A DNA stretch of 20,469 bases, taken from a virus. The DNA lies in IMG/VR virus record IMGVR_UViG_3300010155_004072, positions 1-20,469 of that record. One strand, 5' to 3'. Made by a program: the position numbers and the translations under genes. Positions 1,338 through 7,213 of the stretch are shown one piece after another. A model generated the notes under the pieces. It saw only the letters and a list, made by a program, of their open reading frames with translations. It did not search any database and was not told the DNA's origin. Position 1 is the stretch's first letter. Each line of letters begins with the position of its first letter.

Positions 1338-1523
1338 TCACACTGTGCATTTTCGATCCGATAAACGTTGCACCGCGGTCGATTTCTTCGTCGTGGCCTT
1401 TTTAGGTACTAGGTGTCGCACTTCGGTATAACGGCCGTTAGACGGCAAGCCAGGGGCCCTCTCGGCGATTTGGGTTTCCCCCTCGATCGCCTGTTTTTGG
1501 GCCTGTTTTTGGGCGCTTTTCAT
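1338..1523 (-). CDS. Small basic protein after the tape measure
   Basis: A 61-residue ORF whose ATG overlaps the tape-measure stop by four bases (ATGA), the arrangement seen at many junctions in this cluster. The N-terminus is Gln/Lys/Ala-rich (MKSAQKQAQKQ) and probably helical; the C-terminus is Lys/Thr-rich and basic. There is no recognisable ribosome binding site, only a GGCGGCGGCG run, so translation would depend on coupling to the tape measure. The 25-base gap to the next gene leaves little room for anything else, which supports a real gene. I do not recognise it. It may be a tail-tip assembly factor, but that is a guess. Confidence 0.6.
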   Translation of the reverse strand: MKSAQKQAQKQAIEGETQIAERAPGLPSNGRYTEVRHLVPKKATTKKSTAVQRLSDRKCTV

Positions 1524-3814
1524 ATGGTCGCCGCCGCCGGAAGTCCGCTCGAAGTGACCTCATCGACGGCCTGGGAAACGTCCGATCCAAGCTGCGCCGT
1601 GGACCCTACAAAGCCCATCACATTTACCGTGAACTCCCCGCCGCCTCCGGTCTGCCCGGCCATGCCGCCGCCTCCGGATGCGATCGTGGGTGCTACCTTT
1701 TTCGCGGCCTTTCCGCCCTTGCCAGTGGCACCCTTTCCGGCGATGGCGGCGAACATCGTAGCCGAGAGCGCGAAGGCCACACCCGAGGGGATGTTACCTT
1801 TCGCGAATGAAAAAATAGAACTAGCGGCGGCGAACGCCGCTTTAACACCTGCGGCGGCGCGCTCGTTACGTATGCCGCTGGCGGCGACGTTTCCGAGTGC
1901 GGAAATCGCACTCGGAGCGCCGGCAGATAGCTGCTTCCAGTCCTTGGCCACTTGGGTAGTCATCGCCGACATAGTCCCGAGGGCGGCGGCGGTGTCGTCC
2001 TTGTTGGTTTTGGAATATGCGGTGATCTCCTCGGCGTATGACGAGGCGGCCGATAGCGATGATTGCTGCATTTCCCTTTTTTCCTCTTCGAGCCTTCGCC
2101 GGTCGTCGTTCTCTCGTTGTTTGATGTCGATAAGGGTCAAGTACTTGTGTTCCTCGGCGCTGATCTCCTCGGCGTCTAACTGTTGCTGCAATTCTAGCTC
2201 CCGGGCTTGGCGATCGTGCCGATCCTGGAGTGACTGGGAATCGAAGGCCGCCAACTCGCCGCGCAATTGCATTTTAAGAGTCGCGATCTTTCTGTGCTGT
2301 CCCTCGACGTCCGCGGGTTCGTCATCCTTGAGCTTGTCCATGTCGGCCTTGAACTTCGCGGCGATCATGATCATCCCCTTGGCATATTGCTCCTCGCTGA
2401 TCTTAAACTTCGACTTGTGTTCCTTGACCTCCTCTGCTTTTTTCGCCTCGATCACGGCCTCTTCGCTCACCGTGGAGGCCTTGTAGATAAGCCACTCCCT
2501 ATCAATCCTCTGCAGTTCCTTTTTGTGCGCCTTGGCGCTCGCCGCCCACTTCGCCGCGTTGGCAACCTTCTTCGCCCGACGACTCGCGTCTGCGGAGTCT
2601 GCGGCGTCGGCGGCGAAGTTCTCTTCGGCGATCTCCGCGTCGAGGAGCGCTGTGCGCTCGGCGATCTCCTTTTTCCGATCGGAGACACGCTGGGTGTAGA
2701 TCTTGCGAAGCCTTTTGGATGCGGTCTCGACGATCGCCTCCATGTCGTCGCTGCTCCTTTGCGCTCCACCCTGGAAAGCGTTCCACATCTGTTTTGTCTC
2801 GCGATCTGTGAATTCAAGCGTTTTAAGGAGGGTCTCCTGGAACTTTAAGGCTTCATCATGGGTGAGCGTCCCGATCTGCTCGATCGTCTTCAGGGCTATC
2901 CGTCGGCCCTTGTCGAGCCTTTCGAGAAGACTCAGATCCTTGAGCCCCATCACAGTGTCGTGGATCTGGTCGTTGACCCCCGTCAGGCTCTTTTTTAATG
3001 TCCGGTTGGCCACCGCGGCCGCGTCCGCTCCGGCGGCGAGTGATTCCATATCGGAGACGAGATTCTTGAATTTGTTGTCAAGCTTGTGTGCGTCCATCGT
3101 CAGAGCGTCAAAGTCCACCTCGTCAAACTTGCTATTCAGGTGCTCGACCGTGGCCCCGAGTCGAGCGTAAATCTGATCAGCCTTGGAAAGCTCGTCGACG
3201 GCCTTCCCCTGACTGATGGCGTAATCTTTCGTCGCATCATCAAGATCGATCGTGACTCCGAGCATCTTAAGGCTCGACGTCCTGCCGGAGATGACGGCGG
3301 TTACCAGTCGCTCGGCCGTCGCGCTCATGTCCTTGCCGGTCGCGAGGTACATCTTTGTCGCCACCTCAAGAACCCCGACCTGCTGCTCGGTTGTGGCCCC
3401 TAGAAGCTCCATCTGGTTCGCCAGCTGTTGGATGTCGGTCTCGGTCATGATCCCCTTGGTGACCTTGTTCATCGCGCCCATCGCCTCGTCGGCCTGCTCG
3501 TGTAGTTGCCGGAAAATCACGTCTGCGTTACCGGCGATCTCTCCACTCTTAAGGCGGCCGATGATCTGATCGTAAACCATCATCGGAACACGTAGCGCGG
3601 CCGCGGCGAGCATGATTTTTGATCTCATCTCCGTCCATTGGGTATTGACGTTTTTTAGGTTCGCGGTGACCTTCGCGAACGCCCCCGATTTTTTCGCGGC
3701 CTTCTGGGTCTCCGTGCCCAGTCTCCGCATCTGCTCTTGTGATTGCTTGAGGACCGAGGAAACCTTGTCTTGGCCGACGAGTTCAACGAGAAGTTCAATC
3801 TGGGCTTGTGCCAT
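1520..3814 (-). CDS. Tape measure protein
   Basis: This 764-residue protein is the longest in the window and sits directly after the tail assembly chaperone frames, the standard position of the tape measure, which spans the tail tube lumen and sets tail length. The sequence is mostly predicted helix: an N-terminal Gln/Lys-rich segment (QIELLVELVGQDKVSSVLKQ), a long Lys/Glu/Ala/Arg heptad-like coiled-coil stretch in the middle and second half, a hydrophobic Ala-rich segment at about residues 653-693, then a Gly/Lys-rich linker and a short beta-like tail. The frame extends 15 codons further upstream, but the ATG at 3814 is preceded by AAGGAG eight bases away and follows the preceding stop (TAG) by one base, so I choose it. 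At the usual 0.15 nm per residue the tail would be roughly 115 nm. Confidence 0.92.
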   Translation of the reverse strand: MAQAQIELLVELVGQDKVSSVLKQSQEQMRRLGTETQKAAKKSGAFAKVTANLKNVNTQWTEMRSKIMLAAAALRVPMMVYDQIIGRLKSGEIAGNADVIFRQLHEQADEAMGAMNKVTKGIMTETDIQQLANQMELLGATTEQQVGVLEVATKMYLATGKDMSATAERLVTAVISGRTSSLKMLGVTIDLDDATKDYAISQGKAVDELSKADQIYARLGATVEHLNSKFDEVDFDALTMDAHKLDNKFKNLVSDMESLAAGADAAAVANRTLKKSLTGVNDQIHDTVMGLKDLSLLERLDKGRRIALKTIEQIGTLTHDEALKFQETLLKTLEFTDRETKQMWNAFQGGAQRSSDDMEAIVETASKRLRKIYTQRVSDRKKEIAERTALLDAEIAEENFAADAADSADASRRAKKVANAAKWAASAKAHKKELQRIDREWLIYKASTVSEEAVIEAKKAEEVKEHKSKFKISEEQYAKGMIMIAAKFKADMDKLKDDEPADVEGQHRKIATLKMQLRGELAAFDSQSLQDRHDRQARELELQQQLDAEEISAEEHKYLTLIDIKQRENDDRRRLEEEKREMQQSSLSAASSYAEEITAYSKTNKDDTAAALGTMSAMTTQVAKDWKQLSAGAPSAISALGNVAASGIRNERAAAGVKAAFAAASSIFSFAKGNIPSGVAFALSATMFAAIAGKGATGKGGKAAKKVAPTIASGGGGMAGQTGGGGEFTVNVMGFVGSTAQLGSDVSQAVDEVTSSGLPAAATI

Positions 3815-3815
3815 C

Positions 3816-4178
3816 CTAAGGGCTCCTTCGTTTGATGGCCTCGGCCCGTTTCTTGTCAACGGCGATCCGAAGGTCGGTCAAATAGTCCTCAACCCACGCC
3901 GCGTATGCGTCGGGCCATCCGGAGATCGCGGAGGTTTCGGAGGCGACGAAGAGGGAGACGGCAACGGCAAGCTGGGGTGAGGCGAGGTATGACGCGGGGC
4001 ACGCATCCCAGGCCCGGCGGAGGACCTCGGAGCCCTCGAATGGATAATCAAGGCCCGGCACGCCCCACTCGTCACATCGGCGATCTCGGGGGCATTGCTG
4101 GCAATTGAGCCCGTATGGGGCCCCGGTGATGATCTCGTGATTAGACCAGACGAGCAGAACTAGCTCACGTTTTTTTTT
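3816..4178 (-). CDS. Tail assembly chaperone, T-part (reached by frameshift from G)
   Basis: This frame encodes about 120 residues ending one base before the tape-measure ATG. It has no usable start codon: the first GTG after the slippery run lies inside WGVPGLDY, beyond a Cys cluster (CQQC, then Cys six residues on), and the open frame further upstream (to 4496) translates to an Arg/Ser-rich shadow of the G gene. The frame is +1 (equivalently -2) relative to G and joins it at a GGGGGGCC-A9 run. The known family arrangement is a short G protein and a minor G-T fusion that load the tape measure; here the fusion would be 256-257 residues. The C-terminal half is helical (AWVEDYLTDLRIAVDKKR). The Cys-rich patch is unusual. 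Expression as a fusion is inference from geometry. Confidence 0.8.
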   Translation of the reverse strand, partial: KKKRELVLLVWSNHEIITGAPYGLNCQQCPRDRRCDEWGVPGLDYPFEGSEVLRRAWDACPASYLASPQLAVAVSLFVASETSAISGWPDAYAAWVEDYLTDLRIAVDKKRAEAIKRRSP

Positions 4179-4587
4179 GGCCCCCCGTCGCGGTGGTAAG
4201 CTCGATAATGAATTGCGCCATCGAACTGATGAACTCCGGCGGGACCCCTTCGTTGACGATCCGCCGGATTTCCTCCTCGTCGTCGATCGTGGTGCCGTCG
4301 CCGCGGTCGATCCGGGTGATCGACAGGGCGCACATCTCGCACGCCGCGTACGCCATCCCGGTCGAGTCGGACCCGATCGCCCCAAGCCCCAAGAACTCCC
4401 GGTTATTGAGGGGTCGGACAACGAAGCGATCCGGAGGCGGCCCGGTTCGTTTGATCCGTCCGTTGGCCGAATCGGCCCTGATGATCTCGGGTTCATCGTC
4501 CGCCGCCCCCTTCTTGACCTTGATGGCCGGGTCTCCGGTCCAGAAAACCCCGACCGCCTGATCCGTCCTGGTCAGTAAAAACGCCAC
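4165..4587 (-). CDS. Tail assembly chaperone, G-part
   Basis: A 140-residue protein lying between the tail tube gene and the tape measure, where siphoviruses place the G chaperone. It starts at a GTG at 4587 that shares one base with the stop of the tail tube gene (TAGTG), with no clear ribosome binding site, implying reinitiation. Features include a small beta-like N-terminus (VGVFWTGDPAIKVKK), a central RFVVRPLNNREF segment and a helical C-terminus (PPEFISSMAQFIIELT). The frame ends in a TGA two bases past an A9 run, and the alternative T frame begins exactly there. Identity rests on gene order plus the frameshift layout rather than on sequence similarity I can recall. Confidence 0.85.
   Translation of the reverse strand: MAFLLTRTDQAVGVFWTGDPAIKVKKGAADDEPEIIRADSANGRIKRTGPPPDRFVVRPLNNREFLGLGAIGSDSTGMAYAACEMCALSITRIDRGDGTTIDDEEEIRRIVNEGVPPEFISSMAQFIIELTTATGGQKKT
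4170..4186 (-). promoter_or_regulatory. Programmed frameshift / slippage site for the G-T fusion
   Basis: On the minus strand the sequence reads GGGGGGCC followed by nine A residues, then CGTGA. In the G frame the A run is read as CAA AAA AAA ACG TGA; in the T frame it is GCC AAA AAA AAA CGT GAG. Going from G to T requires +1 or -2. Lysyl-tRNAs on AAA AAA can re-pair perfectly after either slip, and RNA polymerase slippage (loss of one A or gain of two) on an A9 run would give the same product. The stop codon immediately after the run fits a recoding window. Confidence 0.75.
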
Positions 4588-5873
4588 TAGAGGAACGAAA
4601 TCCGAAAGTCGGAATCCATCGGATCCGATCCGGTCCCCGGGAGCGGATCGGCGTTGGCCGCGTCCGCCGTGTTATTTCCTGGATGGTAGGTCCGCTCTTG
4701 CATAATCAAGCCCTCCTGGTCGCCGAGATTCCCCACGGCCATTTCAATCGGCGCGGGGATACAGACGCACATCATGTTCCCGGGCGTTGTGCCAAGTTGG
4801 AGGAAAATCGGATCGATACCCGTCTGAAGATTGAACAGCGGGGCCGCCGTGAGAAGCTCGGAGAAGCTCGCCGTTGCTCTCCGGGCGGTACACAGAAGGC
4901 CGCCAACTCCATTGCTGGCCGCGTGGTCGAGCTTGGGGGCCAGATCCTGCTCAATTGTGATGCTCAGGTTATTGATCGCGGTGGCCGTGTTTCCCGACAG
5001 ATAGCGCGCCGCATTCTTGCCGATTGCGGTGGGGATTGTCTGGAGGGTGAATGCCTGATCGCCGAGCGCCGTTCCGGTCGATAGCTCCATCCCGTTCACG
5101 ACGAAGGTGGCCGCACACGTCGGGACGCCTCGGGGGTCTAGCGTAAGCTCGACGGACTTGACGACACAAGAGTCCATCACGATCCGAGAGGTGTTATCGA
5201 GCGATCTCCACTCTAGCGTGAAAAATAGCGTTTCGATTGATGTATCAATAAACGCCGTCTTGGCCCCGTAGATCGTCTCGTCGGCCGCCACGGTACCGCC
5301 CAGGTTCTGCAAGAGTACCAGGGTGTCGTCGCTGCCGACGTTATTGGAGATCGACTTTACATAGGCGGCCCGGTATTCGAGATCGCCTGATCCGGTCGGG
5401 GTCGTCCTCACGGCGACGGCCTGGCCAGTCGCGAAATTGTCAGTGATGTCGGAGTCCGTGGTCTCGTCGATCGGGAGGATTCCATTGTCGGTGGCCGTCG
5501 AAGTAGACAGAGCAAGATAGCCCCCCGCGTGCGCGCCTCCCATCAAGCTCTTGAGGATGTGGATCTCCGGATGATTGATCGTCCCCGTCGATGGGATCGT
5601 GGGGTTCGTGGTAGGAAGACCAGAGCCGGCCGATGACATCCCGTGCAAGGGGAAGGTGATGCTATACTCCTGGCCATGCTGCGACCCCTCGATCGGGGTC
5701 AGGTAATAGTGCCCCGACGTGATCGTGTTTCGCTCGAAAACTTCCCGGGTCACGGGCGGTAAGCTCGCCTCACATTCGAGGGCCGTGAAGGAGGCCGCCA
5801 ACGTCGTCGGCGTGCCCCATGTCGATTGATGGGCGATCGCAATTCGCCCCACATTGGTCAAGTTGTAAGCCAC
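4587..5873 (-). CDS. Major tail tube protein
   Basis: This 428-residue protein begins at a GTG at 5873 behind a strong AAGGGGGG ribosome binding site six bases upstream, consistent with high expression. It opens with MAYNLTNVGRIAIAHQSTWGTP, a beginning typical of phage tail tube proteins that start with a short strand and a GT-P loop, and is Thr/Gly/Ala/Asn-rich with many short strands and few long helices. It precedes the chaperone G/T genes, exactly where the tube subunit sits. At 428 residues it is longer than a minimal tube subunit (about 150-250), which suggests an added beta domain, perhaps within the Thr-rich middle (about residues 110-200). I cannot assign a precise family. The call is strong from order and composition. 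Confidence 0.85.
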   Translation of the reverse strand: MAYNLTNVGRIAIAHQSTWGTPTTLAASFTALECEASLPPVTREVFERNTITSGHYYLTPIEGSQHGQEYSITFPLHGMSSAGSGLPTTNPTIPSTGTINHPEIHILKSLMGGAHAGGYLALSTSTATDNGILPIDETTDSDITDNFATGQAVAVRTTPTGSGDLEYRAAYVKSISNNVGSDDTLVLLQNLGGTVAADETIYGAKTAFIDTSIETLFFTLEWRSLDNTSRIVMDSCVVKSVELTLDPRGVPTCAATFVVNGMELSTGTALGDQAFTLQTIPTAIGKNAARYLSGNTATAINNLSITIEQDLAPKLDHAASNGVGGLLCTARRATASFSELLTAAPLFNLQTGIDPIFLQLGTTPGNMMCVCIPAPIEMAVGNLGDQEGLIMQERTYHPGNNTADAANADPLPGTGSDPMDSDFRISFL

Positions 5874-5888
5874 GGAAAACCCCCCTTT

Positions 5889-6314
5889 TTACGGATCTCG
5901 CCGATCGTATTGAACGGAGAGATCCCAATTTACAATCCAATATCCATTAGGATCCAGAACATCGGAGCCCGGCCGGATCTCAATGGTCCGGATCTGGGCG
6001 TGCTCCGTGAGTTGTCGCAACGCGTCCACGCACTCATCGCCGTCGTCAAGTTTCCGGCCCGTCGTGCCCCTGCCTTCGACATAAAGAACCGTTAACTCAA
6101 AGGTTATCTCATACGGATCCGCGGCCCCCCCCAGAGTCGTGACGAGCGACTGGGCCGGGACTTGCGGCCCGACGCGGTCGAGACGGAACGCCCGATCCCG
6201 GGCCGGAGTGTCGAAGTCGTGGGCCCTGTAGACGTCCTCGGTGCTCACCTGGGATCCGGGGGTGATCGCTTCGATCGCGTCAACGATCGCGGTCCGCACC
6301 TCCGCCGCCCTCAT
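5889..6314 (-). CDS. Tail terminator / tail completion candidate
   Basis: A 141-residue protein. The frame runs upstream to 6386, but the ATG at 6314 overlaps the upstream stop by four bases (ATGA) and starts the globular sequence MRAAEVRTAIVDAIEAI, so I choose it. The pattern, an N-terminal amphipathic helix, a middle strand pair (YEITFELTVLYVEG), then a helix (DECVDALRQLTEHA) and a terminal strand pair (IRTIEIRPG and WIVNWDLSVQYDRR), is the alpha/beta layout of gpU-like tail terminators, which cap the tail tube. It sits between the head completion gene and the tail tube gene, the normal slot. No catalytic residues. Function is inferred from fold-like pattern and position. Confidence 0.72.
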   Translation of the reverse strand: MRAAEVRTAIVDAIEAITPGSQVSTEDVYRAHDFDTPARDRAFRLDRVGPQVPAQSLVTTLGGAADPYEITFELTVLYVEGRGTTGRKLDDGDECVDALRQLTEHAQIRTIEIRPGSDVLDPNGYWIVNWDLSVQYDRRDP

Positions 6315-7213
6315 AATACGATCCGGGTGGAAACCGGGGCCACCTCGCCCACGTCGACTGTATTGGAGTCGTCGGAATCGTACCACGTCATCGCATCGAT
6401 CGCCCGGGCCACCTCGACGGCCATCCGGTTGTCGAGGGCGTCAAGTTGATCCAACAAGTCGTCATCGCTGTTAACGAGGACGTGCCGATCATCGAGCAAG
6501 ACCCATTGAAGGGCCACGCGCCCGGCCTCCCGGAGCGAGTCCGGATCGCCGAGCAAGTGGGGGCGGCGTTGGCTCTCAAGGAGACGGGAGCGGACCCGCC
6601 GGTTGGCCCGATCTGCTACTTCCTCCCGCCGCGCTGGGGTCATGGCCGACGCGGATCCGGGATGGAGCCGGGCCACATACTGGTAAACGTCGTCGGGCGT
6701 AACCGGATCCCTAAACAGGGTCCGGACCACATGGAAGATCGACGAATAGGCCCTGACCTTGCCGTCCTGGCGGGTCACGGTCCAAAGGACGCGCCGATTG
6801 GTCCCCCGGTCGGCCGTGGCGGCCGCCGGGAGTGTCCAGGAAACACGGGCACCCCTAAAGGATGTCCCGGCACCCGGCGCGGTAAGGAACCCGGGAGGAT
6901 CTCGAAGCGTGACAACCGATCCGAACATCGCCGCGATCGTGACGATCGCGACCTCGCCGGCCAAGTTTTCCAGGCGGTATGATCGGCCGACGTAAACCCC
7001 GGAAGCCGAATCGAGAGTTAAGCTCTGATGGCTCGACCCCGCCGACGATGCCACGGAGGTAGCCACGCCATCGACGACGACGGCCGAGGATGCAAGCTCA
7101 ACCCCGCCATCGTCGAAAGCCACGGCCGCGGCCGTGGAAAGGTAGCTTTCCTCCGTGTCAGGGTACACCTCGATCTCCGTCGAGGTGCTATTTTCGAGCA
7201 CCTCCCAGGCCAT
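6311..7213 (-). CDS. Head-tail connector / head completion protein with N-terminal beta domain
   Basis: A 300-residue product starting at ATG 7213, which shares one base with the capsid stop (TGATG); a GTG at 7237 is possible but has no ribosome binding site. Residues 1-165 look beta-rich with Ser/Val/Ala repeats. Residues about 168-290 are helical and begin DPVTPDDVYQYVARLHPG, followed by REEVADRANRRVRSRLLES and a final DNRMAVEVARAIDAMTWYD; this resembles the small helical gp6/DUF1320-type connector proteins that follow the capsid gene. The combination of a beta domain fused in front of a connector-like domain is unusual. The domain assignment is by pattern recognition, not a search. Confidence 0.65.
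   Translation of the reverse strand: MAWEVLENSTSTEIEVYPDTEESYLSTAAAVAFDDGGVELASSAVVVDGVATSVASSAGSSHQSLTLDSASGVYVGRSYRLENLAGEVAIVTIAAMFGSVVTLRDPPGFLTAPGAGTSFRGARVSWTLPAAATADRGTNRRVLWTVTRQDGKVRAYSSIFHVVRTLFRDPVTPDDVYQYVARLHPGSASAMTPARREEVADRANRRVRSRLLESQRRPHLLGDPDSLREAGRVALQWVLLDDRHVLVNSDDDLLDQLDALDNRMAVEVARAIDAMTWYDSDDSNTVDVGEVAPVSTRIVL

Follow-up and report, generated by a model that had tools for sequence, protein, structure and literature searches.

A conserved run of nine A's is a candidate recoding site in the tail assembly chaperone gene of an uncultured tailed phage

How is the second frame of a two-frame tail gene expressed when it has no start codon near the point where the first frame ends? 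The question arises in the window, by which we mean the whole 20,469-bp stretch of DNA analyzed here, an IMG/VR uncultured virus record that represents a putative tailed phage. Its minus strand encodes terminase (PHROG 2), portal-like (PHROG 145), head, tail-tube-like and tape-measure-like genes, and between the last two of these lie two long frames, G and T, that meet at a run of nine A's (A9). The arrangement resembles lambda G/GT, in which two frames flanked by the tail tube and tape measure genes yield a short G and a minority GT, with T startless; lambda, however, shifts -1, whereas here T stands +1 (or -2) of G, the site is a run of nine A's, and G stops two codons past it. The features of the locus are the following:

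4587-5873, minus strand: tail-tube-like (major tail) gene directly upstream of G, matching PHROG 290 (minor tail protein, E 2e-6)
4165-4587, minus strand: G, probable tail assembly chaperone, 140 aa, with a GTG start; called from its frame and from G+C by codon position
4163-4182, minus strand: 20-nt block GGCCAAAAAAAAACGTGAGC, identical in the close relatives L003 and L004
4170-4178, minus strand: A9, the putative slip run, read ..CAA AAA AAA A.. in the G frame and AAA AAA AAA in the T frame
3816-4178, minus strand: T domain, 120 codons and a stop, +1/-2 of G, without a start codon near the junction
1520-3814, minus strand: tape-measure-like gene directly downstream of T, with its likely start at ATG 3814 and a weak match to PHROG 1538 (tail length tape measure, E 0.008)

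At the junction, the minus strand from 4190 to 4165 reads CGAC GGGGGG CC AAAAAAAAA CG TGA. In the G frame this becomes ACG GGG GGC CAA AAA AAA ACG TGA, so that the protein ends in ..GGQKKT* and its stop codon begins two bases 3' of the run, whereas the T frame continues as AAA AAA AAA CGT GAG and stays open to the TAG at 3818-3816. The third frame, -1 from the run, reads KKNVS* and closes four to five codons after the run in both the window and L003. An earlier note on this DNA had stated that G ends two bases past the run and that T is +1/-2 of G, which excludes a plain -1 shift, and the frames bear out both statements; correspondingly, an XXXYYYZ heptamer with T in the -1 frame of G is found only in the remote relative L002 and in neither the window nor L003. 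The run is the only A9 or T9 in the whole 20.5-kb window (expected 0.02), and the codon choice CAA AAA AAA has a probability of 0.033 in the window and 0.021 in L003 under the phages' own codon usage. Because the 0 and -1 frames both close within two to five codons of the run in these two phages (chance background for such an early -1-frame stop, 0.13 and 0.18), every slip except the one directed into T would give a G-sized protein.

Conservation of the junction can be judged from the contigs L003 and L004, which come from two metagenomes in IMG/VR, are 99.8% identical to each other and, therefore, count effectively as one independent relative. They show the same gene order as the window, and their proteins share 51–53% (G) and 46–48% (T) amino acid identity with those of the window. 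Alignable DNA of the window and L003 is elsewhere mostly 66–68% identical, but GGCC-A9-CGTGAGC is unchanged and in the same frame (G ends in QKKT* and T begins with KKKRE), and across the junction the two share 20 identical nt, as long as any exact match between them. The junction run is also the only A9 or T9 in the 10.3 kb of L003 (expected 0.01). The earlier note had called for relatives to be aligned for conservation of run and frame, and both are exact in L003 and L004. Conserved A runs among homologues are taken as a mark of polymerase slippage (PMC1088944), and a coding-strand run of about nine A's is kept here in one independent relative. The same note had treated GGGGGGCC plus nine A's as the signal; the A9 part of that proposal survives, whereas the six G's preceding the run are not conserved, their counterpart in L003 being GGCGGTGGCC, and we reject them as part of a slip signal. 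In an exact scan of IMG/VR for CAAAAAAAAACGTGAR, only the two known relatives among 18 stretches showed the G-T arrangement, so the motif alone is no signature.

The syntenic remote relative L002 (IMG/VR 3300025141_000321) has a T that is 30% identical in amino acid sequence to that of the window; the protein before the tube is also similar. L002 contains no A run of seven or more, and its T lies -1 of its G. The sole strict X_XXY_YYZ heptamer in the frame of its G is C_CCT_TTA at L002:4974-4980 (about 0.04 expected in the open overlap), and homology to T starts directly after it, with RRQRIRGVVW aligned to KKRELVLLVW, such that a slippery sequence stands at the homologous place in each lineage: A9 in the window, L003 and L004, and CCCTTTA in L002. 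A broken run in relatives had been named in the earlier note as grounds for abandoning the idea; the run is indeed broken in L002, but a classical -1 heptamer stands there instead, and recoding is not refuted. As far as sequence comparison can tell, recoding is conserved, and its motif and direction differ within one lineage (A9 with +1/-2 versus CCCTTTA with -1, at a homologous residue). G of L002 runs about 46 codons beyond the slip site as a Ser/Ala-rich tail (L002:4981-5118), in contrast to the stop two codons past it in the window and L003; the composition of this segment (0.63/0.83/0.70 by codon position) suggests that the T frame is the dominant one there.

The neighborhood and the predicted structure of G both bear on what the two frames encode. 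The order tube, G, T, tape measure is common to all three lineages (window, L003 and L002), which places G and T between tube-like and tape-measure-like genes, as in a G/GT cassette. The tail-tube-like protein of the window is 56–58% identical in amino acid sequence to that of L003 and 28% to its counterpart at the same place in L002, and its tape-measure-like protein resembles the L003 and L002 genes in the same place, that of L002 matching a tape measure family (PHROG 3779, E 3e-5). The AlphaFold2 model of G (pLDDT 68) has as its best solved matches 3fgx (Z 8.3), 3klu/YqbN (Z 6.3) and the HK97 tail assembly chaperone 2ob9 (Z 5.9), which stand above the remaining matches, though these Z scores are middling, and several of its matches in the viral structure library bear the name tail assembly chaperone. 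The predicted fold aligns with these three structures over most of its length; G differs from HK97-type chaperones in its slip site and in having no sequence-family match, in that no credible Pfam or PHROG family was found for G or T. Because the top three fold matches agree with one another and with the gene order, G as a tail assembly chaperone is supported at the level of a predicted structure. The reading of G and T as a tail-chaperone pair, with which the earlier note began, gains from gene order, fold and syntenic relatives alike. The structure model of T (pLDDT 47) was too poor for use. In all three lineages, T keeps the cysteines C26, C29, C35 and C60 (GLxCxxC..RC..W..CP) as well as GWPDAYxAW (compared over window 3816-4178, L003:5001-5348 and L002:4977-5273), and this conservation may point to a small metal-binding domain in the T part of the protein.

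Two readings would dispense with recoding altogether. In the first, ribosomes initiate internally or re-initiate and so make T as a protein of its own, a reading to which the T frame lends itself in that no stop interrupts it as far back as 4571, an ATG lies at 4496 inside that stretch, and a GTG at L002:4941 opens the T-frame ORF of L002. However, G+C by codon position in the T frame upstream of the run, though that frame is open, is 0.50/0.83/0.59 and not coding-like, whereas G (0.59/0.49/0.81) and T after the run (0.66/0.51/0.73) are both coding-like, as are the tube and tape-measure genes; likewise, changes between the window and L003 are in excess at third codon positions, in G up to the run and in T beyond it. 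Past the run, T offers no ATG, GTG or TTG before codon 40 (window) or codon 24 (L003), and both of these lie inside conserved sequence; a CTG stands at T codon 8 of the window, and L003 has none there. The claim that T lacks a start codon thus holds for the surroundings of the junction, in which neither the window nor L003 shows a true T start, but it depends on the compositional argument against the ATG 4496 stretch, and with that argument we consider a separate T improbable. Still harder to credit is a sequencing or assembly error hiding a true A8 (or A11) and one continuous gene. Homopolymers are generally error-prone, and an A8 or A10 that joins the frames without slippage had been put forward as a way in which the idea could fail, but an exact A9 in the same frame in two further contigs, from another phage species and two metagenomes, speaks against it, as does the presence of two frames in L002. 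We put the probability that A9 is a functional recoding site for GT, whatever the machine, at about 0.86. Most expression would then give G (140 aa), and a minority would cross A9 into the +1/-2 frame to give GT (about 257–258 aa), in which T would follow on from ..GGQKK(K)RE... If lambda is a guide, G may coat the tape measure protein, and GT may use its T part to recruit the tail tube protein. The sequence itself shows two coding frames in a +1/-2 relation, an A9 and a frame kept exactly in a diverged relative, and a T without a start; the slippage, its rate and these functions are what we infer from the locus.

Which machine would slip at A9 is a closer call, and the weights that we give to the candidates are judgements rather than computed values. 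Four routes into T are compatible with the frame: RNA polymerase could drop one A or add two, and the ribosome could shift by -2 or by +1. We slightly favor polymerase slippage that would yield a minority of A8 or A11 mRNAs, at a little short of even odds, because the run fills the polymerase hybrid (its nine A's match the 9–10-bp hybrid in length), both non-T frames close within five codons and no 3' stimulatory hairpin shared by the window and L003 was found (3' structure z about 0.15 in the window; -2.2 over 50 nt and -0.67 over 80 nt in L003). A precedent is the nine-A run of Thermus dnaX, a known case of polymerase slippage with stops nearby in both other frames (PMC5009743). On the other side, E. 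coli RNA polymerase on poly(A) prefers single insertions (PMC6260861), and a single-A insertion would land in the useless -1 frame, the T frame requiring a one-base deletion or a two-base insertion; established G/GT cases are, moreover, described as ribosomal (PMC5009743). A ribosomal -2 shift, in which tRNA-Lys in the P and A sites on AAA AAA would re-pair two bases upstream and then read AAA CGT GAG, comes close behind, with the balance leaning against it. The last two bases of CAA together with AAA AAA supply exactly the eight A's needed for tandem re-pairing, phage Mu is reported to use -2 in the same gene pair (PMC5009743; PMC4378225) and some phage shifts seem to work without a stimulator (PMC5009743). 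Yet this run should also allow a competing -1 slip, whose only product would be G-sized, the lack of a shared 3' structure counts here as well and upstream anti-SD pairing is weak, being equaled by 6–11% of random 20-mers. The ribosomal +1 shift, with P-site tRNA-Lys sliding forward on AAA A ahead of ACG, agrees with the frame relation and has been suggested for tail chaperones in certain haloviruses (PMC5009743; PMC7230728), but we think it unlikely, as the last four A's would suffice for it and the retention of CAA and the first AAA, in GC-rich genomes that prefer CAG and AAG, would go unexplained, and as ACG is common (84/3535 codons) and offers no obvious slow A site. Returning to polymerase slippage, we tentatively extend it, with somewhat less assurance, to the history of the site: the G:GT ratio would be set by slippage on A9 instead of ribosomal frameshifting, and within the lineage this mode would have replaced, or been replaced by, a classical -1 ribosomal heptamer at the homologous residue.

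Polymerase slippage can respond to RNA structure on the 5' side of a run. In both the window (4170-4260, minus strand) and L003 (4919-5009), the RNA can be drawn as a long-range stem, with a 5' arm GGYCCCGCC about 60 nt upstream of the run and a 3' arm that ends at the A run. Synonymous recodings of L003 do equally well, and we make no claim for this stem as a signal.

The G/T pair of tailed phages is known to use -1, -2 or +1, depending on the phage (PMC5009743), and the window site is a variant of this known G/GT frameshift with an unusual slip run. Phage Mu tail assembly genes, with their -2 frameshift, share the frame relation and the gene pair, but no homology was found. Thermus thermophilus dnaX shares the A9 run and the nearby stops in the other frames, but it is a cellular gene in which slippage shortens the product, whereas in the window slippage would lengthen it. 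The haloviruses HSTV-2 and those of the HF1 group, for which +1 has been proposed in tail chaperones, reach the same frame as in the window; the HF1 group has a conserved TTT-CGC motif without a conventional slippery sequence, whereas the window has A9. Among the open-access papers searched, none described an A9 or polymerase-slippage G/GT site; an absence at that scope is weak evidence.

Among conserved recoding events, the one behind the G/GT ratio is a classic, and the ribosome is usually taken to be responsible. A conserved A9 standing alone at this junction means that slippage by the polymerase can be put to the test as another explanation in phage tail genes. The pairing of A9 (+1/-2) with CCCTTTA (-1) is, in addition, a natural experiment in which a recoding site changes direction and motif and the fusion product is kept. 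A practical consequence is that gene callers will overlook or truncate T in such phages.

Searches of viral contigs with G alone, with the tube protein alone or with terminase gave no relatives; T and MTP alignments against viral contigs matched only L002, L003 and L004, and a scan with the L002 tube protein returned only L002 itself. T alignments against genome contigs gave no match, nor did tube and tape measure against annotated phages, and T against annotated phages reached only E-values of 3 or more.

Two further runs were seen along the way. A G8 run lies at window 6125-6132 (minus strand) within ORF 5889-6386, the gene preceding the tube-like one. In L013, a frame that by eye looks TIR-like (568-1152) holds CAAAAAAAAACGTGAA in the same phase, with its A9 at 604-612; a 75-codon open frame lies upstream in the other frame, but an ATG at 568 could start the TIR-like frame without slippage.
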